A DNA stretch of 64,000 nt from Acidobacteriaceae bacterium dw_441 (GCA_018449715.1 JAAVVA010000002.1:124001-188000); one strand, 5' to 3'; numbered from the stretch's first letter, positions 42,507-59,534 are shown. Translations and numbers: made by a program. The notes: generated by a model from the sequence alone, not told the origin.

Positions 42507-43058
42507 ATGTCTATGACCGAATCGCAAGCCAATCTTCGTACCCCGCCTTCGATCATCGCCAGCATCATCGCGGTAAGCGCCGTCGCCAGCGCCTTCATCT
42601 GCTGGCTGGTCTACTTCCACGCTCCCATCGACGTCGCTGGAACCCAGCTCCGCTCGCTCCCGCTGGTCAACGCCATTCTGAATGCGCTTTCGACCATCGC
42701 GCTTGTCGTAGGCTACCGCTATATCCGCGCCCGCCAGATTCCGGCACATCGCGCGGCGATGTTCGCGGCCTTCTTCTTCTCGTCAATCTTTCTCGTCTCG
42801 TATCTCACGAACTTCGCCCTCCACGGCGAGACACACTTCAACCGCCTGAGCCCCTGGTGGCCCTTCTATTGGAAGCTCCTGCTTTCGCACGTTCTTCTTT
42901 CGATCATTGCTCTGCCGATGATCCTGATCACCTTCTTCCTGTCGCTGACCGGACGTTTTCCCGGACACAAGAAGCTTGCGCGCTACACCTATCCCATCTG
43001 GCTCTACGTCTCGATCACCGGCGTCGTCGTTTACTGGATGCAGTCGGCGATCCACTAA
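42507..43058 (+). CDS. DUF420 membrane protein (heme/oxidase associated)
   Basis: 183 residues with about five hydrophobic helices (residues 14-34, 49-68, 80-100, 118-140 and 156-176). It contains histidines in HRAAMFAAFFFSSIFLVSY and FALHGETHF typical of DUF420 (YozB) proteins, which sit beside cytochrome oxidase assembly genes. The start codon is one base after the ctaB stop. The exact biochemical role is not established for the family. Confidence 0.82.
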   Translation: MSMTESQANLRTPPSIIASIIAVSAVASAFICWLVYFHAPIDVAGTQLRSLPLVNAILNALSTIALVVGYRYIRARQIPAHRAAMFAAFFFSSIFLVSYLTNFALHGETHFNRLSPWWPFYWKLLLSHVLLSIIALPMILITFFLSLTGRFPGHKKLARYTYPIWLYVSITGVVVYWMQSAIH

Positions 43059-43122: not shown

Positions 43123-43383
43123 TTGACGAACATGCGGTTCCCTGCCTATCTGCAACCCGATACACGCACCCTTCTCCGCACCGGACTCTGGATCTTCGGA
43201 ACCGGCGTAGCCTGTGTCCTGGCGATTCATCTCTTCCTTGGAGGCATTGGCCGCCAGGGGCCGCACACCAACGGCGGATGGCTGGCTCTGATGATTGCGA
43301 TGGGCTGCCTCCCCACCGGCTCGCTCACCATGCTGCTCGCCATCCTGAAGGTAATCGGCGACTTCCGCCGCCGCAACAACTGA
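43123..43383 (+). CDS. Small two-helix membrane protein
   Basis: 86 residues from a TTG at 43123, which has AGGA at 6-base spacing; an ATG at 43132 would drop three residues. Helices lie at about residues 21-40 (LWIFGTGVACVLAIHLFL) and 55-77 (LALMIAMGCLPTGSLTMLL), joined by a Gly-rich loop. It ends 30 bases from the convergent receptor gene. No family is recognised; its place after ctaB and DUF420 suggests membrane respiratory assembly, by position only. Confidence 0.6.
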   Translation: MTNMRFPAYLQPDTRTLLRTGLWIFGTGVACVLAIHLFLGGIGRQGPHTNGGWLALMIAMGCLPTGSLTMLLAILKVIGDFRRRNN

Positions 43384-43412
43384 GCCTCCACCTGCACCTC
43401 GGGCCAACAACC

Positions 43413-46400
43413 CTAGAACTGCACCGAAAGCGCGAACTGGATCTCACGCGGCGTACCCGAGCCGATCGGGCTTACCGGCGTGGTCGTGTTCACCGTCTGC
43501 TGAATGCTTCCGAAGCCCTGAACTCCAAAGGTGGACTGCGGTAGTCCATACTGCGGGTGGTTGAAGAGGTTGAAAAACTCCGAGCGAAACTCCAACCGAG
43601 CAGTGTCTTTCAATGGAATGCGTTTCACCACACCGAGATCCATCTGCCACGCACCGGGGCCACGAAGCAGGTTTCGCGGAGCATTGCCGAAGGTTCCATT
43701 CACAGGCATCGCAAACGCAGCAGGATTGATCCACTGTCTGATTCCCCTGCCGCCAGGCGGCGTCAAAGAAACTCCCGGCACCAGGTCGGGTCGCTGACTT
43801 GTAGTGTTGCCGTCCGGAACACTTGATGAGGAGCGGTTGACCAGCACGTTGACCGGAAAGCCGGTCCGCGCCGCCACAACAGAGTTCAACTCCCATCCCC
43901 CGACAAGGCCGCCAACAACTCCACGCTGGTTAAGATATTCCTTGCCCGGACCAAACGGCAGATCGTACACCGCGTTGGCGTTCAGCACGTGACGCGCATC
44001 CCAGATGCCGCCGGCGCGCTCACAGGCCGGGCAGGCCACGTTCTGCGCCACCAGCGAATCGCCGTCGCCGCTGCCGTTGGAGCCATTGTCGATCTCGTGC
44101 GACAACATATAGTTCGCCGAGAATAGAAGCCCACGAGAAAACGACCGCTTCACGGCTACGGCAACTCCTTCATAGCTGCTCGAGTCCTTGTTGCCTCGCC
44201 AGCTCACCATACCGAAGTTCGGATACGGGCGCGTCTTCGTCACCGGGTTCAGGACGTTGACTTCGGAGAGCGTCAACAGGTGAAGGCCACTGCTGCCCAC
44301 ATAGGAGACCGTACCGACGAAGTCTCCGGGAAACTCCTGCTGCACCGACACGCCCCACTGTTCCACATAAGTGTCTTTGCGCATACGATCGTCGTTGCGC
44401 GGCGAGACGATGCCCTGTGTATTCGAGAGAAACGGCGTGATCGGATAGCTAAGGTTGGGGATGGTGCTGTTGGAGAGCGAGTACGCGAAGACCTCGTTGC
44501 TGATCGGGAGATTCTGATCATCGAGCTGACCATCCTCGTGGTAGATACCGAAACCGCCACGGACGATGGTCTTGTTCCTCCTGTTCGGCGACCACGCGAA
44601 GGCGATGCGCGGGTCGATATCACCGTAGTTGGGCTGGCCGAAGCTCGAGCCAACACCGCAGAATCCTTGCGCTCCGCAGGTAGCAAAGTCAAACGGATGA
44701 GCACGCCCCAGCACCTCGTGAAAGATGTTGAAGAAGCTGTAGCGCACGCCCAGGTTCAGGTTGAAGTTCGGCGTCCAATGGAACTCATCCTGGATATAAC
44801 CGTAATACTGCGTCTTGCGCAGTCCGTTGACGGGCAGCGTTCCATTCAGGGTAGCGGTGCTTACCTGGTTCGCCTGGAAGGCAGCGAGAGAGGAGAAAGC
44901 AACTGTTCCTGCCTCCGTGTTGCCCTGGTTCAGTTGAACCCTGCGAATCTCTACTCCAGCCTTCACCACGTGGCGGCCCGTAGTCCAGGTAAGATTGTCG
45001 ATCTCCGAAAAGCTGTTGCCTGCGCCGATGGCGATACGATTGTTATTCAGCGTGGTGAATCCCGAGACCGAAACCGCATAGGGAACGCCGGTATGGTTCA
45101 GGTCGAGGGTATTGGCAGTGCTGCGATTGAAACCGAACTTGAACTCGTTCACCAGGCTCGAATTGAAGACATGCATCAGCTCGAGCGCGCCATTGACCGG
45201 CGTGGACGCAAGCTGCTGTTTATCCTGCAAATACTGATTCGAGTTCCCCGCCAGCGGCTGGGTATTGACCGCGCGATCATAATTGAAACGCATGTACGCC
45301 GTGGTCTTCTGGGAAAACTGCTGATCGAGCCGCAGCATCGCAGAGTTCTCATTGACCACCTGCGTTCCCTCGCTCACGAAGTTGTCTACATTCGGATTGC
45401 CGGTTGACGATGTGCCCAACGGATACGCGTTCACGATCGCAGCAAGTGACGGCGACTGCTGAAGGACTGCAGCGCGGAAGGTACTGCTTGGTACGAGCCC
45501 GGTCAGCGGAAATCCCCAGTGCTGACGATAGCCTTCATAGGCAAGAAAGAAGAACGTCTTGTCTCGCACGATGGGTCCGCCAACCGACCCGCCAAACTGA
45601 TTCAGCCGAAACGGCGGCTTCGCCTCGACCGGTGCAGGCTGCCTGGCGTCGAGAGCATCGTTGCGAAGATATTCAAACAACTTCCCATGAAACCGATTCG
45701 TCCCCGAAGGCGAGGTCACGGCCAGTTGCGGTCCGCCCGTCCCTCCCCCCTCGGCAGTCGCCAGCATCGAGTCGATCCGAAACTCCTGGATCGTGTCCAG
45801 CGGAATCGAGAGCCGCACGTAGGGCTGCTGCGCCTGGTTGATGACGTTGGTCGCGTCGATGCCGTCATAGGTAAAGTTATCGTCGTCGCGACCACGGCCT
45901 GCAAAGCGAATCGAGCGTTGGTTGCTGCCGCCCGTATCGACAGCGCCTGGCACGAGCGACGTCAATGTTGCCCAGTTGCGACCGTTCAGTGGAAGCTCTT
46001 CCGCCTGCTTCTTCTGAATGCGGCCGCCCAATGCAGCAGTGCCGGTATCCATCTGTTCGGAGCTTGCCGAAACCTCCACGCGCTGTTCCCCACCTGCGAC
46101 GTGCAGCGTTACGTTCAGCGTGCGCGTCCTGCCAATTACTTCTTCCACGTTGGCGTACGTCATCCTTCCAAAGCCAACGTGTTCGAACGTAATCGTATAG
46201 ACTCCCACGGGAAGTTCGGGAAAGCTATAGCGTCCGTTTGATTTTGAGTAGGTTTCGCGCTTGAGATCGGACAAACTCTGAGTCAGGGTAACGTGAGTCC
46301 GCGGGAGCACACGTCCCTGGGAATCGCTAACCGTGCCATTGAGTCCGGCTCGGTCCACCTGCGCATACGCAACGATTCCAGCAAATAAATAAAGAATGCC

Positions 46401-46433
46401 AACTTCAAGCGAAATACAAACTCTTCGACGCAT
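43413..46433 (-). CDS. Oar-like TonB-dependent receptor (intact)
   Basis: 1,006 residues from the ATG at 46433 (GAAGGGA upstream). After a signal peptide ending AYAQ comes a carboxypeptidase-regulatory-like domain (about residues 30-110: LNGTVSDSQGRVLPRTHVTL, GRYSFPELPVGVYTITFEH). A plug follows with ELPLNGRNWATLTSLVPGAVDT, then a long beta-barrel ending in ALSVQF with a terminal Phe. This is the acidobacterial Oar-like group, thought to import or display large substrates. It is the last of six co-directional genes including four predicted phosphoesterases or hydrolases. The substrate is unknown. Confidence 0.9.
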   Translation of the reverse strand: MRRRVCISLEVGILYLFAGIVAYAQVDRAGLNGTVSDSQGRVLPRTHVTLTQSLSDLKRETYSKSNGRYSFPELPVGVYTITFEHVGFGRMTYANVEEVIGRTRTLNVTLHVAGGEQRVEVSASSEQMDTGTAALGGRIQKKQAEELPLNGRNWATLTSLVPGAVDTGGSNQRSIRFAGRGRDDDNFTYDGIDATNVINQAQQPYVRLSIPLDTIQEFRIDSMLATAEGGGTGGPQLAVTSPSGTNRFHGKLFEYLRNDALDARQPAPVEAKPPFRLNQFGGSVGGPIVRDKTFFFLAYEGYRQHWGFPLTGLVPSSTFRAAVLQQSPSLAAIVNAYPLGTSSTGNPNVDNFVSEGTQVVNENSAMLRLDQQFSQKTTAYMRFNYDRAVNTQPLAGNSNQYLQDKQQLASTPVNGALELMHVFNSSLVNEFKFGFNRSTANTLDLNHTGVPYAVSVSGFTTLNNNRIAIGAGNSFSEIDNLTWTTGRHVVKAGVEIRRVQLNQGNTEAGTVAFSSLAAFQANQVSTATLNGTLPVNGLRKTQYYGYIQDEFHWTPNFNLNLGVRYSFFNIFHEVLGRAHPFDFATCGAQGFCGVGSSFGQPNYGDIDPRIAFAWSPNRRNKTIVRGGFGIYHEDGQLDDQNLPISNEVFAYSLSNSTIPNLSYPITPFLSNTQGIVSPRNDDRMRKDTYVEQWGVSVQQEFPGDFVGTVSYVGSSGLHLLTLSEVNVLNPVTKTRPYPNFGMVSWRGNKDSSSYEGVAVAVKRSFSRGLLFSANYMLSHEIDNGSNGSGDGDSLVAQNVACPACERAGGIWDARHVLNANAVYDLPFGPGKEYLNQRGVVGGLVGGWELNSVVAARTGFPVNVLVNRSSSSVPDGNTTSQRPDLVPGVSLTPPGGRGIRQWINPAAFAMPVNGTFGNAPRNLLRGPGAWQMDLGVVKRIPLKDTARLEFRSEFFNLFNHPQYGLPQSTFGVQGFGSIQQTVNTTTPVSPIGSGTPREIQFALSVQF

Positions 46434-46644
46434 AATTCCCTTCTCCACCCAACTCCTCGCGAACACACATCTGCTGACAGCTCTTACCTTTGTCGATATT
46501 GCCAAGCACAAACACATCTTCATGCCCGCTCTATCAAAGGATTATGAAGAGATATCGATCCCACTTTGTTTGGTTCTGAAAAACGCAGTTAGCGTACTTG
46601 TCACACACATAGACAATCCCAGTTCTCTAGTAAAGCGATCCACT

Positions 46645-46668
46645 TGGACGGCAACCTTCTGCCGTCCA
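46645..46668 (-). other. Intercistronic hairpin
   Basis: TGGACGGCA (46645-46653) pairs perfectly with TGCCGTCCA (46660-46668). It lies 36 bases after the stop of the YncE/phosphoesterase gene and has no T-run. The rest of the 270-base gap to the receptor gene shows no other feature. Confidence 0.6.
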
Positions 46669-46703
46669 GGTCGAAGAAATGGACCTGAGCTCTTTACCTC
46701 GGT

Positions 46704-49256
46704 TTAGTCATTGTCTTTGGAGATCATGTCACCTGCGTCAATGAGTGGCCGGAAGCGATGCACAGGCGGAGGCATAGGGGAGTCGGCGCCTTTTATGCTC
46801 TTCCAGATAATCTCGTTGAGTGCATGCATCGGCGCACGATCTATATCGGAGAAGTCCATCCTGCTGCTCTCCTCCGATCCATAGTCGCCCTTCTTGTTCT
46901 TCGCATTGACATCGATCTCCGGTTGGATCGCGTTGAATGCCGTCACCTTTGCCTCGGTCCCAAAGGATGCGTACATGGGCATGGCGGCAGCATCGTACTG
47001 GCTCATCGGTGGCAGGCCCAGCAGCAACTCCATCGAACGCACCATCGAGCTGGTCGAGTACAGCGTGCTGTCCACGACGCCGCGTTTCACGTAGGGGCTC
47101 AAGACCAACCCCACCGTTCGTCGCGCATCCACATGGTCCGATCCGTCCTGTCCGTCATCTTCGATGATGAAGATGGCGGTATTGGGCCAGTAGCGGCTAT
47201 GGCTGACGGCATCCACGAGCTGGCCGATGGCGAAGTCGTTGTTGGCGACCATGGCCTGCGGCGTGAAAGCTCCGGGAGCGGTGCCGCGAGTATGGTCCTC
47301 AGGCATGCTCATGACGATGAAGTTGGGCAGGCGCTTGTCTGCATTCGGGCTGTCGTAGTTGGCCTCGTACTGCTTGAACTCCTGCAGGAATACCGCCGTG
47401 CGGTCGGTGTCGCGCGGGCCGATGTAGTGAGGCGAGACGTGACCGTAGAGGCCTTCCGCTCCGGGGGCGGCATCGAGTGTGGTGCCAGTGCTTGCGCGGG
47501 AGGCGTATTCACCATAAGAACGATAGGTGAGGCCTTTGCGCTGAGCGAGATCCCAGAGATGACCGGCGGAGGGGATGTAGGCGCGGGTGCGAGCGGCGTC
47601 GCTGCGGCCGGCGTATGTCGGTGGCCAGTACCGCTCATTGAAATCCGTCGCATAGGCCGAGTTCGACCAGGAGTGCCCGTCGACGCTGACTTCGCCATCG
47701 CAATACAGGTTGTCCAGAATCACATACTGCCGTGCTAACGCGTGTTGGTTCGGAGTGATCTCTTCGCCGAAGATCGCGAGGCGTGGATCGCCGTTGGCTT
47801 GCTTGAAATCCCCGAACTCCTGATCGTAGGTACGATTCTCCTTGATGATGTAGATCACATGCTCGATCGGGGTATGCACACCGACCTCACGGGGAAGGAT
47901 CGTTGGCTCTTTGGGCGGACGAGCCTCCGACAACAACGAGTCGTTATAAGGAGTGTTTTCGATGACCTGATGCGTCCACTTCGGAAGATTCTGTCTCAGA
48001 TTTGCCACGGGAAGCACTTCGACACTGCTCTTCTGAATCGTCTTGATGGTTTCGTCCCCATTCCACTTCGAGGCCAGGGGGCTTCCAACGCTTTTCAGGT
48101 CAGGATGACCTTCTTCTCCCTTACTGTTTCCGATGAACAGCGTGTTGTTGTTTTCCGCCAGAGCTAACGCAGACGGATACCACCCCGTCGGAATGAAACC
48201 GATCACCGCGCTGTGACCTCGCACTGCAATCCGAATGACAGCGATGGAATTGTTATCGGCGTTCGCGACGTACAGTAGCTTGTGTTTGTCGTCGATCTCA
48301 ATCGCATCCGGAGTCGAGCCCTCAGGCGCAAGCGGAGTCAACGTCGTTGCGAGCCGCTCCACGACTTCGAGCTTTGCGGTGTCGATCACGTAGATCGTAT
48401 TGTCATTCGAACACGCGACGAACAGGCGGCCATCGGATGCCAGCTTCATGTCGTTTGGATTCATTCCGACATGCAGCGTGCGTATGACTTTGTTGGTTTC
48501 CGTATCGATTACGCTTACGCTTTCGCTTGCCCAGTTCGACACAAACAGCCGGCGATGATCGCTGCTCAGCACCGTTGCATAGGGGTTGATCTCGACAGGA
48601 ATCCTGGTGACGATCTGACGCGTCTTCGCGTCGAAGACCACAACATTACTCGGCCCAAGCCCTGTGCCGCGATTCGCGGCGTAGATAAGGTGCTTGCCGG
48701 GCAATGGCACGACTCCCGACCACCAGACCTTCTTAGGATCAATTGTTTCTTCGAGTCCTCCGGTTGGCTTTTCGCTCAACCGTCCATCCTTGTAGGAGAA
48801 CTCATAGATGGGAGCCATGCTTCCCGCTATGTTCTTGGCGCCTGTGGCATTGCCTCCGGAGACATAAAGCGTGTGGCCATCCGGAGACCACGCGAGTCCC
48901 AGCCAGGTCGTCTTGAGCGGAATCTCCTGTATCAGCTTGCGAGTCTTGACATCGATCACATCGATGCCGTGCGGCTGATACCCGGAATGAGTCACGACAA
49001 CGACCTTCCCATCCGGCGACACAACGGCATTCAACACCATGTCACCGATGGTCGCGATTGGCTTTCCAGCCGGAGTAATCCTCCATCCATTTGGAAGGTC
49101 GAAGCCATCAGGGATGTATTTTGGAGTTTGCTGGGTGGCTTCTCCAATTGCGCGAACGGGTGTCTGCGCTTCATGACTCGAAGAGCTCTGGGCTTGCATC
49201 TTGCCGAAGAAACTTGTGAGCAACAGCAAAGCGACAGTAGTGCGATTCAGATACAT
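46704..49256 (-). CDS. YncE-type beta-propeller fused to a phosphoesterase domain
   Basis: 850 residues from the ATG at 49256, with a signal peptide ending at KMQAQ. Residues about 45-390 form a YVTN propeller (VVTHSGYQPHGIDVIDVKTRK, LFVSNWASESVSVIDTETNK, LYVANADNNSIAVIRI). From about residue 455 a PF04185-type phosphoesterase domain begins at HVIYIIKENRTYDQEFGDF. It ends with the metal-binding region IFIIEDDGQDGSDHVDARR. The family contains phospholipases C and acid phosphatases. The protein should be exported, and phosphodiester or phosphomonoester hydrolysis is likely. The same fold occurs in the gene at 50629. Confidence 0.88.
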   Translation of the reverse strand: MYLNRTTVALLLLTSFFGKMQAQSSSSHEAQTPVRAIGEATQQTPKYIPDGFDLPNGWRITPAGKPIATIGDMVLNAVVSPDGKVVVVTHSGYQPHGIDVIDVKTRKLIQEIPLKTTWLGLAWSPDGHTLYVSGGNATGAKNIAGSMAPIYEFSYKDGRLSEKPTGGLEETIDPKKVWWSGVVPLPGKHLIYAANRGTGLGPSNVVVFDAKTRQIVTRIPVEINPYATVLSSDHRRLFVSNWASESVSVIDTETNKVIRTLHVGMNPNDMKLASDGRLFVACSNDNTIYVIDTAKLEVVERLATTLTPLAPEGSTPDAIEIDDKHKLLYVANADNNSIAVIRIAVRGHSAVIGFIPTGWYPSALALAENNNTLFIGNSKGEEGHPDLKSVGSPLASKWNGDETIKTIQKSSVEVLPVANLRQNLPKWTHQVIENTPYNDSLLSEARPPKEPTILPREVGVHTPIEHVIYIIKENRTYDQEFGDFKQANGDPRLAIFGEEITPNQHALARQYVILDNLYCDGEVSVDGHSWSNSAYATDFNERYWPPTYAGRSDAARTRAYIPSAGHLWDLAQRKGLTYRSYGEYASRASTGTTLDAAPGAEGLYGHVSPHYIGPRDTDRTAVFLQEFKQYEANYDSPNADKRLPNFIVMSMPEDHTRGTAPGAFTPQAMVANNDFAIGQLVDAVSHSRYWPNTAIFIIEDDGQDGSDHVDARRTVGLVLSPYVKRGVVDSTLYSTSSMVRSMELLLGLPPMSQYDAAAMPMYASFGTEAKVTAFNAIQPEIDVNAKNKKGDYGSEESSRMDFSDIDRAPMHALNEIIWKSIKGADSPMPPPVHRFRPLIDAGDMISKDND

Positions 49257-49324
49257 ATTTCCCTTTCTTTTCCTCACGACCACGGCAAACTGAGATCCAG
49301 TCAGCAGGCGATTTGGATATTCGA

Positions 49325-49357
49325 ACGGCCATCACAGATGGAAATAGTGATGCCCGT
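49325..49357 (-). other. Intercistronic hairpin
   Basis: ACGG-c-CATCAC pairs with GTGATG-c-CCGT around 11 bases, a 10-bp stem with one mismatch. It lies between the PI-PLC-like and YncE/phosphoesterase genes, without a T-run. Confidence 0.5.
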
Positions 49358-49375
49358 CCGAATACCCCAATGGGC

Positions 49376-50569
49376 TTATCGTTTTGCGACCGATGAGTCG
49401 ATAAGGCTGTCGACGCAACCCTGCGGAGCCGTTACCGGATTGCATCTTGCGACCAGACTGTTGGGAAAGCCGACAAAAAATCCGGTCCACTTAGCGGGTT
49501 CGGCAGGAGGATAATCCGTACTCAACATCTGGGCACCGCTGGAGAGCGCTGCATCGGCGTGCGCGTGGTCGTTAGCGCGCGCTTCGACGGTGCCGTCATC
49601 GGTGCGAGTCCGAATCAGATATCCCTGAAGCGCCAGAGCATCAATCTTGGCTTTGTCTGGATCGTTCTGCTCCATAAATGCCGCGTCGGGCGCGCCAGCC
49701 ACTGAGTTGGTGAAGATGACGCGGCCACGCAGAGCAGGGTGTCCTTCGGTATAGACCGGCGTAACCGGCCTTTGATCCATCAGGAAGACCACCTTGTTGC
49801 GAGCTTCCGCCAGCGTGGGCCAGCCGCCTTTCTTTCCCCCAACCGATTTGCCGGTTGCCTGAACAGCCTCCGGCAGCGTGTCGTAACTTCCACGAACCTG
49901 ATCGGGCGTAATCATCTCTTTCTCGGAGAAGACGGAACGAATCTCCGCGTCGAGCGCGTCGAAGGTCGCAGAGGTAAAAGGCTCAGGACCAAGGGGAGCA
50001 GCTTCAGCGCCAGCAGCGGGTGTTGTGGGAGCACGCCTGCCCTGCTTGGTCTCCACGAGAATGAAGATCGGCAGATGACCGGGGTGCTGTTGCGACCAGT
50101 TGCGGACGATCGTGAGGCAACCGATAAACGTATGGCAGGAGCTGCGTTGATCGACGTTCATCCCGTGCATGACTTTGAATCCCGGCTTGTCCATCTCGTG
50201 ATTTGGGTCGAAGTCCGGATCGGCAGGCAGCCCCGCAGCGGCGACCTTGTCAACGATCGTCGGGTGTGAGTAGCGACCGCCTTTGGAATCGGCGTAGACG
50301 TCGATTTCAAGCTGGCGAACGCCGCCTGAGAGCTGATCGGGAAGCGGCGGATGCGCATACTCAAGAGCCCGCATCCCCCTTGGACTCGCTTGTTCAACCA
50401 CCTTGACCTCGCTCGGTGCAAGGCCCGTGTGATAGCTGTTGTGGGTTCCGATAACCTGAACCTGGTTGATATGAACGACCTGATCCTGCCTGGCAGCAGT
50501 GGTTTGTTGCGCTACGACATTCGTCGAGAGCAGGTATGCAAATGGCAAGAGAGTAAAGAGTCTTCGCAT
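49376..50569 (-). CDS. Ca-dependent phosphoinositide-specific phospholipase C-like enzyme
   Basis: 397 residues from the ATG at 50569 (GAGGATC upstream), with a signal peptide ending VVAQ. The PI-PLC X-box-like motifs are present: QVIGTHNSYH (first catalytic His43), QLEIDVYAD (metal ligands near 88-93) and FKVMHGM (second His135). VFLMDQRP and the C-terminal AHADAALSSGAQMLSTDYP match the Ca-dependent PLC-C1 family. It would cleave a glycerophosphodiester bond, releasing an inositol phosphate or related head group. Three other predicted hydrolases are next to it. Confidence 0.87.
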   Translation of the reverse strand: MRRLFTLLPFAYLLSTNVVAQQTTAARQDQVVHINQVQVIGTHNSYHTGLAPSEVKVVEQASPRGMRALEYAHPPLPDQLSGGVRQLEIDVYADSKGGRYSHPTIVDKVAAAGLPADPDFDPNHEMDKPGFKVMHGMNVDQRSSCHTFIGCLTIVRNWSQQHPGHLPIFILVETKQGRRAPTTPAAGAEAAPLGPEPFTSATFDALDAEIRSVFSEKEMITPDQVRGSYDTLPEAVQATGKSVGGKKGGWPTLAEARNKVVFLMDQRPVTPVYTEGHPALRGRVIFTNSVAGAPDAAFMEQNDPDKAKIDALALQGYLIRTRTDDGTVEARANDHAHADAALSSGAQMLSTDYPPAEPAKWTGFFVGFPNSLVARCNPVTAPQGCVDSLIDSSVAKR

Positions 50570-50628
50570 CTTAATGATCCTCAATGTTTGATTTCCTGTG
50601 TTCATGCAGCAACCTTCCTGCGGTGTTT

Positions 50629-52083
50629 TTATATGCGTTTGCGAGAACCCTTCTCCTGCCGTGGCTGCACCTGTTCTTCCCCGGGGAACGTAGGGGCTGG
50701 CAGATTGGCGATCTCATACTGTGCGAGTCTGTAGTCTCCCGTTGTGTCAGGCAATACTGCTGCTTTCTCGTTCGCCTCGTGAAAGCGGAAGGCCGAGGTG
50801 AGGTCACCAAACGTGCGCCTTCTCCAGTCACTGATGTTGGGCTCTCGAATGCCAGTGAACTTCTCCAGAAACTGAAGCACGGACGTGTGATCGAAGGACT
50901 GGCTGCACACATAGCCTCCGGTTGTCCACGGAGAGATCAGAATGCATGGAACGCGAAACCCTGCGCCGATAGGAAGCCCCTCGATGAACTCATGAGGCGT
51001 CCCTTCGGGAGGAACGGGAGGCGGCACGTGGTCGAAGATCCCATCGTTTTCGTCGTAGTTGAGAATAAAGACTGTCTTGGCCCAAACGTCAGGATTCGCC
51101 GCAATCGCATCGAGCTTACTTGCAATGAACGCCGCTCCATCTGCAGGCGTGTAATCAGGATGCTCTGATTCGCGAGCCGTGGGAAAAAGCCAAGAGACTG
51201 CGGGCAGCTTGTCGTGCATGGCATCGTATTCAAACTGTCCAGGCGCGGAGATTAGCAGCCCCTTGGTGTGGAGGGGTGATCCTACGGGAGCTTCGATGAA
51301 GTTCCGAAAGCTCTGCAGCCGGTTATAAATATGACCGGCCTGATGAGAGTAAGCCTTCCATGAGATCCCTGCGGCTTCCAGGCGTTCGGCATAGGTCGTC
51401 CAGGTAAAGCCCTGCTCCGGCCAGATGTTATGGGTCATGGGTCCGCCATGAATGCCGTCGGGATCTACCGTTCCTGTCAACCAGTACATGCGGTTTGGCC
51501 CCGTCGGCCCCATCATCGAACAGTGGTAGGAGTCACAGAGCGTAAACGCATCCGCCAGGGCAAAATGGAATGGGATGTCGTCTCGCTTGTAGTAGCTCAT
51601 CGTGTAGGGGCCCTGCTCCCCGTCCGCCTTGCGATGAGCCGGTACCCAGTTGTCCATCCGTCCGCCATTCCAGGATTCGTGCTGTACTGCCCACCCGTGG
51701 TTGGTTGAAGGGATCTTCTGGGCACTGCTCGCCTTCGTGTCGAGATGAAACGGCAACAGATAACCGAGAGGATTCTGGGGATCCGGCTGATGGAAGACGG
51801 ACCGTCCACTGGAGAGTGTCATGGCATGAGGATCATCAAATCCCTTCACGCCAGCCAGTGTCCCGAAGTAATGATCAAAGGAGCGATTCTCCTGCATCAG
51901 CATGACTACGTGCTTGATGTCACGCATAGAACCCTGACGTGGTCGTCCTTGTGCAAGAACACGTCTCAGGTTCGGAGGCATTAACGTCTCTGCGGCAACA
52001 GCAGCGGCAACGCCGCCCGCGGTTCGCAGAAGACGGCGACGCGTAAAGCGCTGCGCTGATGCAGCTGGGTATTGATTTTCCAT
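50629..52083 (-). CDS. TAT-exported phospholipase C (PF04185 family)
   Basis: 484 residues. The N-terminus has a twin-arginine signal, RRRLLRTAGG (residues 15-24). The phosphoesterase domain starts DIKHVVMLMQENRSFDHYFGT (catalytic ENRSFD) and has YHCSMMGPTGPNRMYWLTG and NYDENDGIFDHVPPP, which are bacterial phosphatidylcholine-type PLC motifs. It should hydrolyse phospholipid or a related phosphodiester outside the cytoplasm. It lacks the extra C-terminal domains of Pseudomonas PlcH. It follows the PHP-hydrolase gene and precedes the PI-PLC-like gene by 59 bases. Confidence 0.9.
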   Translation of the reverse strand: MENQYPAASAQRFTRRRLLRTAGGVAAAVAAETLMPPNLRRVLAQGRPRQGSMRDIKHVVMLMQENRSFDHYFGTLAGVKGFDDPHAMTLSSGRSVFHQPDPQNPLGYLLPFHLDTKASSAQKIPSTNHGWAVQHESWNGGRMDNWVPAHRKADGEQGPYTMSYYKRDDIPFHFALADAFTLCDSYHCSMMGPTGPNRMYWLTGTVDPDGIHGGPMTHNIWPEQGFTWTTYAERLEAAGISWKAYSHQAGHIYNRLQSFRNFIEAPVGSPLHTKGLLISAPGQFEYDAMHDKLPAVSWLFPTARESEHPDYTPADGAAFIASKLDAIAANPDVWAKTVFILNYDENDGIFDHVPPPVPPEGTPHEFIEGLPIGAGFRVPCILISPWTTGGYVCSQSFDHTSVLQFLEKFTGIREPNISDWRRRTFGDLTSAFRFHEANEKAAVLPDTTGDYRLAQYEIANLPAPTFPGEEQVQPRQEKGSRKRI

Positions 52084-52123
52084 TTCGTTCTCCAGATCAC
52101 GAACAGTTCGTTACCTTGAATCA

Positions 52124-52153
52124 GGTAGCCCCGTGGTTTGGAACGAGGCTACC
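52124..52153 (-). other. Intercistronic hairpin
   Basis: GGTAGCC (52124-52130) pairs perfectly with GGCTACC (52147-52153) in the spacer between the PHP-hydrolase gene and the phospholipase gene. There is no T-run. Confidence 0.5.
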
Positions 52154-52172
52154 GATGACATCGAAGCGATCT

Positions 52173-53372
52173 TTAAAAGTTGGGATTGAAGTTGAAGTAG
52201 ATGGGGTTCGACAGACCGACCATATTGCCGCTCAGCGCCATCGACTCCGGAACCTGCGGATAGGCCGTGGAAGGACCCTCCACCGTGACGCGGTAGTAGC
52301 TTCGGACAAGAGTTTGCGGGGTGTCGGTGAACTCCACCATCGTGGTCTTGCCGCCGGTAGCTTGGAAGGTGCCGAATTTATTGCCGTCTTTGACAACGTT
52401 GACGGTGTAGGTCGCGCCTGCAACGGTGTTTCCGGTGAGTTGGACGCGGAACTTGACCGGCTTGCCGGTGGACTTGGCGTTATCGCCCATCATCATGTCC
52501 ATCTTGCCATCCTGATCGAGGTCGGCATAGAACTCGACGCGCGGAGCATACGGATTTGCGCTCACCGAAACGCGGCCACCAGTGAGCGTATCGACAACGG
52601 CCTGCTTCGTGCGGGCAGGCGCGAAGACCCAGGTGGTCGGAGTGCCGATGTAGTTGTATTTCGCCTGGGCGCTGTTCTTCGTTGCCTGCTCGGGCGTATC
52701 TGGTAATCCATGATGCGCGTCGCTTCCGCCTCTGCCGGTCAGCTTGCGTCCTGAGGAGAGCATGTCGTCCCAGATCATGATGGCGTTGGCGTTCTTGGGC
52801 CACATCGCGGAGTTCCACACCTCGATCGAGTCGACCATATCGTAGGAGTATCCGAAGTGGTCTTTGCCGCTGGGATGGTTCGCCGACAAGTGAACTCCAA
52901 GCTCCTTCTTCACCGCGCCGACGACCACATCGCGCTGGTCGCGAACGTCGTAGAGGCGCTGATGGTCGTAAGGCTTGGCCGAAAATACATTGCCGTGTCC
53001 GCGAGTCGTCGTCCACTCCGCGCCGTAGAGAAGCAGGAGCGAGTCGGACTTGAACTCGGGATCGGACCAGGTGTTGTGCTCTGTATCGCCAAGCACATGG
53101 TTATCGTGGTCGGTAATGCAGATATAGTCCATCCCGACAGACTGGGAGTAAGAGATGATCTTTGCAACGGAGTTATTGCTGGACTCCTTGCTATGCCTGG
53201 AGTGAACGTGAAGATCACCCTTCATCCATACGCCATCGCTCAAGCTAGCGATAGCCGGCAGCGGACCAAGCTCAGTGGATGCCCACGGATTGCTGTGGGT
53301 CGACTGCCCAAACAAGGAGCTGCAAACCGCCATGACCAGACCGGCGGCGAAAACATGTGCGCGCATATTCAA
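52173..53372 (-). CDS. CehA/McbA-family PHP-domain metallohydrolase
   Basis: 399 residues with a signal peptide ending LFGQ. The PHP metal site is seen as GDLHVHSRHSKES (52-64) and ITDHDNHV (86-93), with later ligands in YGAEWTT, LSANHPSG and GGSDAHHG. This architecture matches the CehA/McbA group, whose members hydrolyse phosphodiesters or carbamate esters. The C-terminal 110 residues form a beta domain ending NPIYFNFNPNF. The family is firm; the substrate is not. It is the first intact gene after the interrupted receptor. Confidence 0.85.
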   Translation of the reverse strand: MNMRAHVFAAGLVMAVCSSLFGQSTHSNPWASTELGPLPAIASLSDGVWMKGDLHVHSRHSKESSNNSVAKIISYSQSVGMDYICITDHDNHVLGDTEHNTWSDPEFKSDSLLLLYGAEWTTTRGHGNVFSAKPYDHQRLYDVRDQRDVVVGAVKKELGVHLSANHPSGKDHFGYSYDMVDSIEVWNSAMWPKNANAIMIWDDMLSSGRKLTGRGGSDAHHGLPDTPEQATKNSAQAKYNYIGTPTTWVFAPARTKQAVVDTLTGGRVSVSANPYAPRVEFYADLDQDGKMDMMMGDNAKSTGKPVKFRVQLTGNTVAGATYTVNVVKDGNKFGTFQATGGKTTMVEFTDTPQTLVRSYYRVTVEGPSTAYPQVPESMALSGNMVGLSNPIYFNFNPNF

Positions 53373-53423
53373 TACCTTTCAAGAGCTACAAAATCAGGGT
53401 GTGTCCGTCTATGCGAAGTAGTG

Positions 53424-53459
53424 CCCGCATGCCAGAGATGAATCTCTCTGGCATGCGGG
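53424..53459 (-). other. Strong intercistronic hairpin after the interrupted receptor gene
   Basis: A 15-bp perfect stem, CCCGCATGCCAGAGA (53424-53438) with TCTCTGGCATGCGGG (53445-53459), around TGAATC. It lies 25 bases beyond the receptor stop and has no T-run. It is a likely mRNA-processing or 3'-stabilising structure. Confidence 0.7.
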
Positions 53460-53483
53460 AGTTAGTTGTTTGCAGCGAAGTTC

Positions 53484-56400
53484 TTAGAAGTTGAACTTCA
53501 CTCCAAACTCCATCGTGCGGTTTTCCGAAACGACGGAAGAGATCCTTCCAAGAGTGGAAGTATTGGTGACCGAAGCTCCAGGAGCGCCGAAGTTAGGATG
53601 GTTGAAGGTGTTGAAGGCTTCGGCACGAAGCTGAAGCCTGTACTCTCTCCAGATGGTCGTGTTCTTGGTCAGGTTCATGTCCCAGTTCTGGTAACCGGGC
53701 CCCCGCAGCATGTTGTATGCGGAGGTTCCATAGGTGAAGTTCGGAGGCGCAGTAAAGGCGGCTGGATTGAACCACTGGTCCTTCGTTTTGTGGGACGGGT
53801 AAAGAGGGACTCCCGGTACAACATTCGCGCGTCCGCTTACGAGGCCGACAGGATTACCCGGAGCGGTGTAGCTGACGGAGAATGGCGTTCCCTCCTGGAA
53901 TGCGGTGATTCCAGAGATCTGCCAACCACTCACGATCCTGTTGACGAATGCATTGGCAGTCCCGAGCAACAGGTGCCCCTGGCCAATAGGCAACCCATAG
54001 GAGTAGCTAACCCGGAACGTAATGGGAGCGATATTGCCAATATTTCCGTAAGAGTCGCCGATATTTGCAGGGTCCTCGAACGTCTCCAGTCCCAGCATCC
54101 TTTCCCACTGGAACTCAGCGTTGACCATGAACCCATTGCTGTAGCGCTTATGGACTCCGGCCTGCAGAGAGTTCATCGTGGTGTGATACATCGGCTCAAA
54201 TACGTAGCTGATTGTGGAGAAGGGTTGGACAGGACGGCGAGATTGAACAACACCCGGAGCCGGAGGAGGAAGGTTGATATCCCGGCTCGCAGAGCCGCCA
54301 GAGTTGTTCAGGTGGATATTGCGCTGACCGACATAACCGACATGGATGTCCAGACCCTTCGAGAACTGGTGTTCCACAGCCAGGTTGTACTGTTCGGTAT
54401 AGGGAGCGACCGTGGAGTGCTGCGCAGTGACAGAGGGGTTGGCCGCGAAGGCTCCCGTGCTCGAAAACGGCGCATACATGGTGAAGGCAGGAACCGTGCC
54501 GCTCGGTTGCGAGAAGCTTTGCGAGCTCGTGAAGGGATAGCCCGAAGAAGAGCCCTGCTCAATATACTGCGAGGGAATCATGTTGAAGAAGAGGCCAAAC
54601 GCACCGCGTACCACGGTGTTCGGCAGCATCTGATAGGAAAAGCCGAAACGTGGAGCGATGTTCGTCTTCGCCAGTCCCAGATAGCTGAAGACATTCGACG
54701 GCAAGCCGACCGAGGACGCCAGCACCGTGTTCGGAATGAAAGCAGGGATAACCGAGGTGGGGTAGGTCTTGGCGAAGATGACGACCTTCTTCACCTCGGG
54801 AACATAGAGAGAGTTTTGACCGTAGGGATTCTCTTGAAACACCTGCAGGTCATAACGAATACCGGCATTGATCGTCAGCTTGGGTATCGGCTTGAAGTCA
54901 TCCTGAACATACATGCCGTACTGGCTTGAGAAGTTCCTGGTGACAGTGTTCGCTGGGAGCGAGTTCCCCGTCGAAGCAGGATATCCCAGCAGGAAGTCCG
55001 CATAGGCGTTGCCTGTATAGCGGCCATTGAACGAAAAGCTTCCCGTGTTTGAACCAGCATTATCGTTTCTATCGAAGAGGAAGGAGAACCCTGCCTTGAT
55101 GGTGTGTCTCGCCAGAACCTTCGTCACCGAGGTATTAATCTGTTCGTCCTGCTCGAGTCCCTTCGACCCGCCTTCGCCCGGCGATGCAATGTTGGTAATG
55201 GAGATTCCCGGAGAGCCCGGGATCAACTCTGTACCAAGCCCGGGGATGATCGAGGACCAATCGGTCTTATTGTTCTGCGGGATGCGATAGATCGGCAGAT
55301 GGAAGTAGGAGGCAGACGTATCCCAGATCAGGGTTGGAGAGAAGGTGTGGGTCCAGCCAACGATGAAATTGGTATTGTGTTCTCCATCCTGGGACATGCC
55401 TCCGGACAAGCTCGAAGTGCCTACGTCAGGATTTGGACCGTAGTTGCCCTTCATGAACGTTCCACGGATCTGATTCTTTTCGTTGATCCTGTGATCGAGG
55501 CGAAGCGAGAAGCGAGTAGCGTTATCCGTAAACGGTACAAGCTCCACCGTATTGACGCCGATCCCAGGCTTGGTGGGCATCGGGTAGAGCATCTTCTGCA
55601 GTTGGAGATCCACCGTATTGAGCATGCTTTGCGGAATCACGTTTCCGGCGAAGGCCTGTCCTGTCAGCGGATTGATGATCGGATCGCTGATCTCGGAGAA
55701 ATTACCTTGCCGCTCCAGCACGGTTGGCTGCTGACTGCTAACCGTGGCAGCCTGCGTCAGCTTGTACCCTTCATACGCAAAGAAGAAGAAGGAACGATCC
55801 TTACCGTTATAGATTTTTGGAATATAGATGGGACCGTTAACATTCCCGCCATACTCATTGCGCTGGTACGCCGGACGCGGTTGCCCGCCGGCGAAGTAGC
55901 TCTTTGCAGCGGTGCCCTTGCTCCGGTTGAACTCCAGAAGCTCTCCGTGCAATTGATTTCCACCGCTCTTGCTGGCGACGATCACCTGGGCCGCCTGGGC
56001 GAACTCAGCAGAACCACCCGAGGTAATCATCTTGAACTCGGAGATTGCATCGAGCGGAGGTACCTCGCCCTGGCCGCGTTGCAAGCTGATCTGCATGTTG
56101 GTAACGCCGTCCAGCGTGAAGCCGACACCGCCGTAGGAGTTGCGCTGCGCCCCGCCAATCGAGAAGGTCACGCCTCTGTTAGGAATCGTGTCCTGCGCCG
56201 TAGCGGAGATCGCCTACACTCCGGGGATAAGCTGCAACAGACCGATGATGCTCAAATGGCTATTCAGCGGCGTGTTCTGCAGCGTCTGACTGTCGATCAC
56301 CAGGCCTACGGCAGAGTTCTCCGTTTGCAGCACAGGACTGTCGGAGTTGACCGTAATAGTCTGCTGCTCCGAGCCAATCTCGAGCTTGGCATGAATCTGT

Positions 56401-56792
56401 ACGACCTGATCGATCGCAAGCACGATGTTGTTTTGCTGAAAGGTTTTGAAACCGGCTTTGTCGATCGTGATCGTGTAGCTTCCAGGGTGCAGCTGCGGAA
56501 CACTGTAGGAGCCGCGATCGGAGGAGGTCACAGTGCGAACTTCGTTCGTATCCAGCTGACGGATCGAAATGGTTGCTCCGGCCAGAGAAGCTCCACTGGC
56601 ATCGGTCACATCACCAGTGATCGATCCCGTAATTCCCTGTCCGAATGCTGCTGTTGCCGACACCAGGGCAAATATTCCCCACAAACAGGCAAAAAGAGAA
56701 AAGCTCCTCCTTGCTCTCTTCGTTAAAAATTTCCCTGACGGATTTAATTGCGGTGACCTATCCCGTTTCAAATTGAGAAACCAATGCTCCAT
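53484..56792 (-). pseudogene. Oar-like TonB-dependent receptor with in-frame amber stop
   Basis: The full frame (about 1,100 codons) has a good Shine-Dalgarno (AGAGAGGAAA), a signal peptide ending AFGQ and a carboxypeptidase-regulatory domain (GITGSITGDVTDASGASL). The plug then reaches LLQLIPGV, and codon 193 is TAG (56214-56216). Reading continues in the same frame with AISATAQDTIPNRG and a complete plug and barrel ending EFGVKFNF. No base is gained or lost. The stop lies in the conserved plug loop. It is either an authentic inactivating mutation (one change from CAG or similar), a sequencing error or a read-through site. An ATG or GTG near 56171 could not give an exported protein. Confidence 0.8.
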
Positions 56793-57396
56793 GACTTTCC
56801 TCTCTCCGTTTTGTCAACGTAGGCCTGATCTGCCTAAAAGTGCATAAGTATGCCGCGAGTATGTCGGTCGCTCCAATACTCCGCAAGGTGTGCTCAAGTG
56901 CATAGATTTCTCACCCCTCATGGGAGGGCGTCTAAGGCCTTGCAATCAGAGATTTCATGCGGGAAAGGTCAACGACCCTACACGGACCTCCGATGGAGGT
57001 GTGGGATTCAGTGGACACTTCATTCATCGCGAAGACTGAGCCTGACTTCGTGAAAGGTCCTTCACGTCGACTCAAGGAGCGCTCATCGCGCTGAGGGGAT
57101 GCGTTGGCTTCCTGATGGAGTACAGCCCGCACCTATAGAGCGACAGCTCATCCTATATATAGATACAGACCGTATTGGAGGACAGGCGAGCCTGTTCGCT
57201 CGATGGATTCACCGAGCTGTAATCTTTCAGCGTTCGCGGCCAAAATCCCCAGTGGCCAACGCGAATCGGTACGTTCATTCACTGCCGCAATCCGGTATCT
57301 CACACTCGTGTAGAGCGACCAAAGTCGATTGATTGACGATGCATTCATATAAAAGCCGTACATTCATCGAAGTAGTCAGAACTCGAAAGACGTATC
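56793..57396. promoter_or_regulatory. 600-base divergent regulatory region
   Basis: No protein-like frame. It separates the receptor and hydrolase genes from the winged-helix regulator. It holds perfect inverted repeats ACCTCC-GAT-GGAGGT (56986-57000), GCATA-AG-TATGC (56842-56853) and TAGGC-N7-GCCTA (56820-56836). There is also a TATATATA tract near 57155 and a TATAAA -10 candidate (57348-57353) with a weak -35 for the regulator gene. Any of these could bind the regulator. Confidence 0.5.
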
Positions 57397-58842
57397 ATGC
57401 GTGTCTTGGAATCACCCTCAAAGACTCCCGCGGAATACGCTCAAGCCCCAAGCCACGCAAACGTTCTTGGTGTAATCAACGCAGACGATCCTCGCCTGCA
57501 GCTTACCCAACGTATAGCCGCAAGTGGGAGCCTCGGGCGATCGCGGCTGTTGGTCCGTTTTCTGCAGTACGTCGTAGAAAGGCATGTCAGCAATCGCTCT
57601 GACGAGATCACCGAACAGCAGATCGGTGTCCATGTCTTTGGCCGACCGGGAGACTACGATCCGGGCGAAGATAATATTGTTCGAAGCTACGCCCGTACCC
57701 TTCGCGATCGCATTCAGAAATATTTTGAAACAGAGGGACTCGAGGAGGAGTTACTCCTCGAAATTCCACGCGGAGGATATGAACCGTTTTTTACTTCGAG
57801 ATCGAAGGCTCTCGAAGCGGTTCTGGACGGAGTTATCGCATCCTCCGAGCCCAACCTGCTCGTTGTATCCGAAGATTCGGAAGAACCGAATGTACAGGAA
57901 ACCCCGGTTCCCGCAGGCTCGACAGCCTCTGGCAGAGGGAATTTCCTAAACGGCCTGGAAAAGTTCTTCAACTTTAAGCAACTGCTTACACTTGGCATCG
58001 GTGGGATCTTCGGAATCGGCTTAACGCTCCTGATCCTGCGAGGAAATCTCCTGCTGTCTCCTGACCAGGAAGCCACACGTGTTCTATGGCGCCAGCTCTT
58101 CAACAAAGATCGAGACACGTTCGTTGTGCCTTCCGACAATGGGCTCGTCATCCTGCAGGGACTGATCCCGAGTCCTCTGCCTCTGAACTCCTATGTCGAT
58201 GGAAGCTATCGAGCAAAGATTCAATCGGATGACTCCTGGGGAGTAAAGAGACTTTTGATACTTGCCTCGAAACGCTACACCAATGTGACCGACCTGGATT
58301 TCGTTGCGCATTTGGCACAGTTCAACGACGTGGTGCCAGAGCACATGATGATTCGCTTTGCTCGCGATCTCCGCATGGACGACCTACGGTCCAGCAATGC
58401 AATCCTGCTCGGCTCCATCCAATCGAATCCGTGGGTTCAGCTCTTCCAACCTCAAATGCACTTTCGTTTTCGTTTCGACAGGAATATCGATAAGGAACTC
58501 GTCATTACGAACGAGTCTCCCAGGCCAGGAGAAGCCCCGCTCTACACCCACCTTGGCGACCAACATACGTATGGGGTCATCGCATACTTGCCGAATCTCA
58601 ATGCAACAGATCATGTTCTGATTGTTGCTGGCGTCAATATGGCCGGAACGCAGGCGGCGGGAGCAGTGCTGCTGAATCCCAGCCTCATCGCGCCAACTCT
58701 TGAGCGCGCTCGAACCTCACACGGCGATCTTCAGCAATTTGAGCTCCTGATCGAATCCGATAACGTCGCGACCAATGCTTCGATCCCCCACATTGTCGCA
58801 GAGCGTATTGGGCCAGTCTCCCAAAGTAGCGAAGGGCGTTAA
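57397..58842 (+). CDS. Membrane-anchored winged-helix regulator
   Basis: 481 residues. Residues about 45-131 form the winged-helix-type domain seen in many acidobacterial regulators: RLLVRFLQYVVERHV, ITEQQIGVHVFGR, DPGEDNIVRSYARTLRDRIQKYF and LEIPRGGYEPFF. A linker of about 65 residues precedes one membrane helix (196-216). The 260-residue C-terminal part would be outside the cytoplasm and has no motif I recognise. The topology resembles ToxR/CadC one-component regulators. It is divergent from the receptor and phosphoesterase cluster and is its likely regulator. Confidence 0.75.
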   Translation: MRVLESPSKTPAEYAQAPSHANVLGVINADDPRLQLTQRIAASGSLGRSRLLVRFLQYVVERHVSNRSDEITEQQIGVHVFGRPGDYDPGEDNIVRSYARTLRDRIQKYFETEGLEEELLLEIPRGGYEPFFTSRSKALEAVLDGVIASSEPNLLVVSEDSEEPNVQETPVPAGSTASGRGNFLNGLEKFFNFKQLLTLGIGGIFGIGLTLLILRGNLLLSPDQEATRVLWRQLFNKDRDTFVVPSDNGLVILQGLIPSPLPLNSYVDGSYRAKIQSDDSWGVKRLLILASKRYTNVTDLDFVAHLAQFNDVVPEHMMIRFARDLRMDDLRSSNAILLGSIQSNPWVQLFQPQMHFRFRFDRNIDKELVITNESPRPGEAPLYTHLGDQHTYGVIAYLPNLNATDHVLIVAGVNMAGTQAAGAVLLNPSLIAPTLERARTSHGDLQQFELLIESDNVATNASIPHIVAERIGPVSQSSEGR

Positions 58843-59008
58843 CTCAACGGACGGCCCCTAAATCGCGTACAGGTTCGTGTGGTCCCCAGCTTCCACTGGC
58901 TGCTCAGTTATACTCTTCTAACGATCTGATAAAGGGGAGTCAGCCGATTACGCAAGCCGGCAACAGTCGTCTTCCACAAATCGCAGTCAGCGCTATTGTG
59001 GACAAGTA

Positions 59009-59040
59009 AATTGCCCCTCTTGACAAATTTAATTGCCCCT
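59009..59040. repeat. Direct repeat AATTGCCCCT before ssb
   Basis: Identical 10-mers at 59009-59018 and 59031-59040 (22-base period, about two helical turns). A perfect TTGACA (59020-59025) lies between them, and the ssb start is at 59058. They may be regulator sites; no clear -10 follows. Confidence 0.4.
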
Positions 59041-59057
59041 GAACACGGAGTATTCGC

Positions 59058-59534
59058 ATGGCAAAAGGCGTAAATAAGGTATTTCTTCTCGGCAACGTGG
59101 GTAAAGACCCCGAGATCCGGGCCACCCCGGGCGGCGTCACCGTCGCAACCTTCTCCCTGGCGACGGCCGAGCGCGCAAAGGATTCAAGCGGCAACTGGGC
59201 CGACAAGACCGAGTGGCACAATCTGGTCGCCTTCAACCGCACCGCCGAGATCGTTCGCGACTACGTGAAGAAGGGGACCCAGATCTTCGTCGAGGGCCGC
59301 ATCCAGACCCGTTCGTGGGACGACAAGACCTCGGGCGAAAAGAAGTATCGTACCGAGATTCTGGTCAACGACCTGAGCCTGCTCGGCGGAGGCGGTGGTG
59401 GTGGACGCAGTGAAGGCGCAGCATCGGGCGGAGGCTATTCGCGCTCGAACACTGCCAGCTTCGATCAGCGCACCCCGGCCTCGCAAACCGACTATGCCGA
59501 CCAGGGCATCACGGACGACGACATTCCCTTCTAA
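59058..59534 (+). CDS. ssb: Single-stranded DNA-binding protein
   Basis: A 158-residue SSB. The OB-fold domain covers residues 1-110 (MAKGVNKVFLLGNVGKDPEI, TEWHNLVAFNRTAEI, GTQIFVEGRIQTRSW). A Gly/Ser-rich linker (about 112-135) leads to the acidic tail DDDIPF, the site that recruits replication and repair partners. The start has CGGAG upstream. It is followed by two zinc-ribbon genes on the same strand. Confidence 0.95.
   Translation: MAKGVNKVFLLGNVGKDPEIRATPGGVTVATFSLATAERAKDSSGNWADKTEWHNLVAFNRTAEIVRDYVKKGTQIFVEGRIQTRSWDDKTSGEKKYRTEILVNDLSLLGGGGGGGRSEGAASGGGYSRSNTASFDQRTPASQTDYADQGITDDDIPF

Follow-up and report, generated by a model that had tools for sequence, protein, structure and literature searches.

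The window examined in this study is a stretch of 64,000 nucleotides from Acidobacteriaceae bacterium dw_441 (GCA_018449715.1, JAAVVA010000002.1:124001-188000). It displayed six co-directional genes and a divergent one (57397-58842), flanked by DUF420 (42507-43058) on one side and ssb (59058-59534) on the other. All seven lay where originally predicted, and Pfam and NCBIfam searches agreed with the predicted families of the six co-directional ones. Features are listed below in window coordinates.

43413-46523, minus strand: R2, second Oar-like TonB-dependent receptor, 1036 aa (PF25183 and PF13620)
46704-49283, minus strand: PROP, exported fusion of a YVTN/YncE-like beta-propeller and a PF04185 phosphoesterase, 859 aa
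49376-50605, minus strand: PIPLC, exported, putatively Ca2+-dependent PI-PLC-like enzyme, 409 aa (PF16670)
50629-52083, minus strand: PLC, PC-PLC-like phosphoesterase, predicted to be Tat-exported, catalytic core only, 484 aa (PF04185, TIGR03396-like)
52173-53372, minus strand: PHP, exported CehA/McbA-type PHP metallohydrolase, 399 aa (NF038032)
53424-53459, minus strand: stem-loop of 15 bp in the R1-PHP intergenic region (folding z-score)
53484-56792, minus strand: R1, first Oar-like TonB-dependent receptor, interrupted (PF25183 and PF13620)
56214-56216, minus strand: in-frame TAG at codon 193 of R1 (alignment to relatives)
57397-58842, plus strand: WHREG, predicted divergent membrane-anchored DNA-binding-type regulator, 481 aa (AlphaFold model)
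43375-59045, no strand: stretch inserted relative to same-genus genomes (homology to the empty site, GC content)

This block (43.4-58.8 kb) is a discrete insertion of about 15 kb between DUF420 and ssb. Of 11 same-genus loci retrieved with the nearby ubiA gene as anchor, nine contained both flanking genes, and the gap between these measured 284-504 bp in six loci and 1.7-2.8 kb in three, versus 16.0 kb in the window. Homology to the empty site stopped at about 43372 and restarted at about 59046, so that practically the whole interval first singled out corresponds to inserted DNA. Its GC content (0.52-0.58) was lower than that of the flanks (about 0.58-0.64). Neither a tRNA nor a long flanking repeat was found at the inserted block, and no mobility gene was seen among its annotated genes. 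The block also displayed no CAZyme, its enzymes being phosphodiesterases as judged from sequence, and no ECF sigma factor.

PIPLC scored 422 bits on PF16670 (cut-off 29.9). Its residues H55, N56, E100, D102, H147 and E185 were invariant across 25 homologs and, by analogy with known PI-PLCs, would be of the catalytic or Ca2+-ligand type. Structures 3h4w and 5fyo (Streptomyces antibioticus PI-PLC1 and a Pseudomonas PI-PLC) were detectable sequence relatives, with profile similarity over part of the chain only. Likewise, PHP scored 138.1 bits on the CehA/McbA family NF038032 (cut-off 80), and its metal-ligand-type residues H55, H57, D88, H89, E119, H166, D218 and H220 were invariant in 32 homologs. 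PHP-type structure 3e38 was a relative by profile; a PDB fold search with the PHP model yielded weak matches to beta-sandwich domains only. By analogy, these conserved residues support catalysis by both enzymes. The phospholipase C initially proposed at 50629-52083 stood as far as PF04185 (385 bits), a TIGR03396-like sequence and a Tat motif are concerned. It did not stand as a typical PC-PLC, since its TIGR03396 score (552.9 bits) lay under the equivalog cut-off (580.25) and the protein covered profile positions 2-495 of 688, the C-terminal part being missing (no PF05506 match in a Pfam search). The hydrolases were classed as exported on visual inspection of their N-terminal sequences, without a predictor.

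The AlphaFold model of WHREG displayed an N-terminal winged-helix-like helical domain, a long single helix (191-216) and a C-terminal alpha/beta domain. This modelled layout would fit CadC/ToxR-type regulators and agrees with the membrane-anchored winged-helix regulator that had been predicted, but Pfam, NCBIfam and PDB provided no significant match to back the family. Between R1 and PHP, the intergenic region had a folding z-score of -5.2, and a strong hairpin occurred at the equivalent position in L034 (-4.2) and L160 (-5.4), with a weaker one in L036 (-2.2). Such a position, kept in four loci, fits a single transcript from which receptor and enzymes may be unequally expressed. A sigma-70 promoter scan gave fewer hits than expected by chance and was uninformative.

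Gene-order comparison revealed R1 orthologs at about 19 loci (counting the window) from several genera of the family. PHP occurred in 18 of them and WHREG beside R1 in 17; PI-PLC was found in eight, PLC in four, PROP in five and a GH92 alpha-mannosidase, absent from the window, in six. Since R1, WHREG and PHP were near-constant whereas the other enzymes varied, these three genes form a chassis and the remaining hydrolases are swappable cassettes. Locus L034 was organized as WHREG/R1/PHP/PIPLC, to which L036 and L037 added GH92; L231, L246 and L247 displayed WHREG/R1/PLC/PIPLC/GH92, and L233, L239 and L240 WHREG/R1/PROP/PHP. WHREG/R1/PHP alone was the arrangement of L234, L237, L238 and L242, which together with L243 had PHP as sole hydrolase. 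Among the loci seen, PLC, PIPLC and PROP occurred together only in the window.

PLC orthologs (81-84% identical) were placed between R1 and PIPLC in L231, L246 and L247, and PROP orthologs (84-86%) belonged to R1 loci L139, L233, L239 and L240. In trees, the PLC and PROP copies of the window grouped with chassis-linked ones (row L223, labelled 'other' in the PLC/PROP tree, is the same locus as L233). Both genes were first held to be additions private to dw_441, since four relatives lacked both, until a wider search linked them to the chassis elsewhere. PROP and PLC were also found away from R1. Synteny in relatives, which had been set as a test beforehand, was thus observed in other genera for R1, WHREG, PHP, PLC, PI-PLC and PROP, all linked to the R1/PHP chassis. 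The exception was R2, whose orthologs (56-74%) lay near a different propeller-phosphoesterase (28-34% identical to PROP) in eight loci and never with the R1 chassis in any of them. R2 is therefore the weakest member of the block, the only one of seven genes without synteny support, and its inclusion in the unit is not supported.

The association was further evaluated around 40 PI-PLC loci. An Oar-like gene lay within two genes of PI-PLC in 29 of them (about 2.5 expected), and 11 had a GH92 gene no more than eight genes away (about 0.9 expected). These expectations rest on counts of about 65 Oar-like genes (dw_441) and 3-12 GH92 genes per genome, and on an assumed total of about 4,200 genes; gene calls came from a crude ORF picker. 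Naive probabilities were tiny, but these 40 loci are related. Seven changes of the GH92 state and five of the Oar state were counted on a tree, indicating that the association was made or lost repeatedly. About 11 of the 40 loci showed no Oar nearby. As a discrete insertion whose gene set recurs in other genera, the block is more than a chance assembly.

Neighbouring genes provided clues to the substrate. On contig C7, dw_441 has a paralogous locus (L052) where PI-PLC and receptor lie beside a LacI regulator and a myo-inositol oxygenase (MIOX) gene, the only one in this genome. MIOX and LacI also adjoined PI-PLC/receptor in L040, L050 and L051, and most of these loci, including L052, displayed a sugar permease. 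Distant PHP homologs often adjoined Oar-like receptors, and MIOX in L200 and L212. L064 encodes a fusion of GH92 and PI-PLC (1127 aa); GH38 and an Oar-like receptor lie ahead of it, and a partial PLC comes after it. Together, the MIOX neighbours and this fusion with its GH38 indicate inositol, often mannosylated inositol lipids, and the idea of head-group release gains support from them. PF00149 genes were encountered beside Oar-PI-PLC in L043, L050 and L071. Outside the block, dw_441 has a 73% GH92a relative, beside its closest WHREG paralog (L165). Full-text literature searches yielded no account of PI-PLC together with GH92 and a TonB or PUL setting.

Taken from sequence and gene context, the block is probably a TonB-coupled foraging locus for phosphodiester-linked membrane-lipid head groups, inositol phospholipids being a principal target. 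One argument is the constant R1-WHREG-PHP chassis with its interchangeable hydrolases, nearly all of which are phosphodiesterases or GH92, together with the fact that the PLC and PROP of the window are closest to chassis-linked copies. The frequent vicinity of PI-PLC to Oar and GH92 genes, the GH92-PI-PLC fusion, the MIOX, LacI and permease genes beside Oar-PI-PLC (C7 locus and relatives) and the MIOX genes beside PHP homologs point the same way, as does PF00149 beside Oar-PI-PLC, since this is the enzyme pair of a phosphate-induced system discussed below. Other observations count against foraging. The window has no GH92, MIOX or product transporter, and no SusD family match among its seven genes (Pfam and NCBIfam); Oar-like receptors are very common in this genome, and about 11 of the 40 PI-PLC loci had none nearby. 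Since R1 loci with PHP alone exist, the chassis can do without a phospholipase. Finally, CehA and McbA are carbamate hydrolases acting on carbamate pesticides (PMC8292978), so the PHP step may not act on phosphate esters; the chassis PHP shares family NF038032 and the PHP-type metal-ligand residues with them.

From these data we infer a substrate, an order of steps, localisations and a mode of regulation. WHREG would sense a periplasmic signal and control the co-directional genes from R1 to PROP. The exported PI-PLC, PC-PLC-like enzyme and propeller-phosphoesterase would cut lipids or GPI-type conjugates and so set free head-group phosphates or small glyco-phosphoesters, and an Oar-like receptor would bring the fragment through the outer membrane with TonB energy. 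PHP, the constant enzyme, may then trim the phosphate ester, for instance inositol phosphate or its cyclic form, to phosphate and an alcohol such as myo-inositol. In dw_441, inositol could enter metabolism via the MIOX encoded beside the second PI-PLC/receptor pair.

The strongest competing explanation is that the benefit is phosphorus and not carbon: the locus would be an acidobacterial counterpart of the Flavobacterium phosphate utilisation systems, switched on at phosphate depletion, and the head group would be incidental. It was originally stated that no named system with this exact set was known. A similar one does exist: PUSI of Flavobacterium johnsoniae combines a TonB receptor with PF16670 and PF00149, and phosphate depletion induces it strongly (PMC8115612). 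PUSI further includes SusC/SusD-type PusCD and an ECF sigma factor (PMC8115612; Table 1 of that paper seems to have swapped names and Pfam numbers between Fjoh_4172 and Fjoh_4173). PUSI and the block both have a TonB-dependent receptor gene clustered with an exported PF16670 PI-PLC-type phosphodiesterase, following a PUL-like logic. Yet, the window has no SusD and displays receptors of the Oar-like kind, a predicted single-protein regulator anchored in the membrane instead of the ECF sigma factor and, in place of PF00149, which is absent from the block, CehA/McbA PHP, PC-PLC-like and propeller-phosphoesterase enzymes. PUSI is the closest known system; without SusD, PF00149 and an ECF sigma factor, the block is not a PUSI but would follow the same principle. 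The PF00149 neighbours of L043, L050 and L071 speak for a role in phosphorus supply, as does the fact that most cassette genes would release phosphate-bearing products. On the other hand, a Pho-box scan with the E. coli consensus, a weak test, revealed no excess near the locus; the MIOX, LacI and sugar permease genes that accompany the paralogs speak for carbon use, and GH92, GH38 and GH31 neighbours for glycan use. We give the phosphorus explanation a fair, though less than even, chance. It overlaps with head-group foraging, and confidence in one is not taken from the other.

Both of the predicted Oar-like receptors matched PF25183 and PF13620, but only one is intact. R2 displayed the CarboxypepD_reg N-domain and PF25183 barrel typical of Oar-like receptors, which R1 combined only when its TAG was read through (the 3' part matched PF25183 at 658 bits and the 5' part PF13620). 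This TAG cuts the R1 frame into 192 aa and 895 aa. Codon 193 is CAG in the closest relative, L034, and encodes Gln in all five aligned relatives; recoding of the TAG was set aside because relatives have Gln and there was no other sign of it. The L034 ortholog is intact and 88% identical to R1, those at many other loci being 55-59% identical. Of the codon differences between R1 and L034, 341 were synonymous and 135 non-synonymous. This implies that selection maintained the frame until recently, and that the stop either arose recently or stems from a mistake in assembly. With R1 interrupted, any activity of the locus in dw_441 probably relies on R2 or some other receptor. It might instead be decaying and non-functional in this particular strain. 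Besides the nonsense codon, a PI-PLC remnant with a TAG on another contig (C8) of this genome and a frame-shifted PI-PLC in L231 are in favour of decay. Every other gene of the block, R2 included, is nevertheless intact, and the substitution pattern of R1 argues against long-standing loss; we regard decay as conceivable, with roughly one chance in three.

Two further explanations fared worse. The block could be a loose pile of exported enzymes on a mobile island, in which abundant Oar-like receptors adjoin hydrolases without any shared function. The many Oar-like genes of dw_441, the unlinked R2, the copies of PROP and PLC found apart from R1 and the insertion itself would agree with this. It is nonetheless improbable, since a single R1 ortholog group (55-59%) turns up across several genera together with recurring ortholog groups of PHP, PLC, PI-PLC and PROP, variously combined, and since adjacency was far above background. 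It is just as improbable that the Oar-like receptor exports the hydrolases and that the locus attacks or lyses membranes of fungal, actinobacterial or other prey instead of importing: Myxococcus xanthus Oar, a CarboxypepD_reg-containing Oar-type TonB-dependent transporter likened here by name only, is required for secretion of the protease PopC (PMC6434023), and the enzymes have export signals and a family with membrane-lytic members, but the paralogous loci include genes to break down and transport the product (MIOX, permease), in agreement with import and feeding, and toxin or secretion genes were not linked.

Head-group foraging, for its part, relates the block to SusCD PULs, with which it shares the grouping of receptor, regulator and exported hydrolases and, in relatives, swappable enzymes including GH92; it differs from them by phosphodiesterases instead of CAZymes and by having no SusD-like gene. 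A more specific proposal, which we regard as tentative and rather unlikely to hold in full, is that Acidobacteriaceae possess distinct modular lipid-head-group loci, with an Oar receptor/regulator/CehA-McbA-PHP chassis and exchangeable phospholipase and mannosidase cassettes. These would target mannosylated inositol phospholipids (GPI anchors or mannosyl inositol phosphoceramides of fungi, phosphatidylinositol mannosides of actinobacteria) and feed inositol to MIOX, PHP being a new inositol-phosphate or cyclic-phosphate esterase.

The lipids of dead fungi and bacteria store much of the carbon and phosphorus available in soil, where Acidobacteria are among the most abundant bacteria. Their genomes encode dozens of Oar-like receptors. 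The recurring receptor-regulator-phosphodiesterase chassis gives a concrete candidate cargo for one group of these receptors and suggests that the CehA/McbA family may have a role other than pesticide hydrolysis. It would also extend the PUS idea from Bacteroidetes to Acidobacteria.

The chassis, that is the recurring set of an Oar-like TonB-dependent receptor gene (R1), a predicted membrane-anchored regulator gene (WHREG) and a CehA/McbA-type metallohydrolase gene (PHP), carries a stem-loop in the window (53424-53459), with a perfectly paired 15-bp stem, in the gap separating R1 from PHP. A similar hairpin, carrying a compensatory change, occupied this interval in the related locus L034, and strong hairpins of different sequence were found at the equivalent position in L036 and L160. 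In three loci (L229:7772, L230:10719 and L232:10779) the chassis PHP gene was directly adjoined by a second, longer CehA/McbA-type gene (ca. 490 aa), thus forming a tandem of two same-family enzymes.

More distant CehA/McbA-family genes in L188, L200, L205, L207, L208 and L212 adjoined a sugar-permease gene of the type seen in myo-inositol oxygenase (MIOX) clusters, and MIOX itself in two of these six. A sugar-permease gene also occurs at a second PI-PLC locus of the source genome (G000:C7:204579-213000; L052, L217), together with an Oar-like receptor, the sole MIOX of the genome, a metallo-beta-lactamase-fold gene and LacI.

A full GH92 alpha-mannosidase and a full PF16670 PI-PLC formed a single protein in genome G064 (L064:7160-10543); genes for GH38 and an Oar-like receptor come before it, and a partial PLC comes after. 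On a contig labelled as a Rhodanobacteraceae MAG (L041), the Oar/PI-PLC/GH92 combination is one typical of acidobacteria, reflecting either misbinning or transfer. Remnant or frame-shifted PI-PLC genes in the source genome (G000:C8:137284-137412) and a relative (L231:13289-14469) suggest that PI-PLC was lost repeatedly. The closest WHREG paralog in G000 (51-55%) lay on contig C1 (L165:5860-18503), alongside Oar-like receptors and a GH92a relative (73%), an arrangement that would fit retention of the module's mannosidase portion at a separate site.
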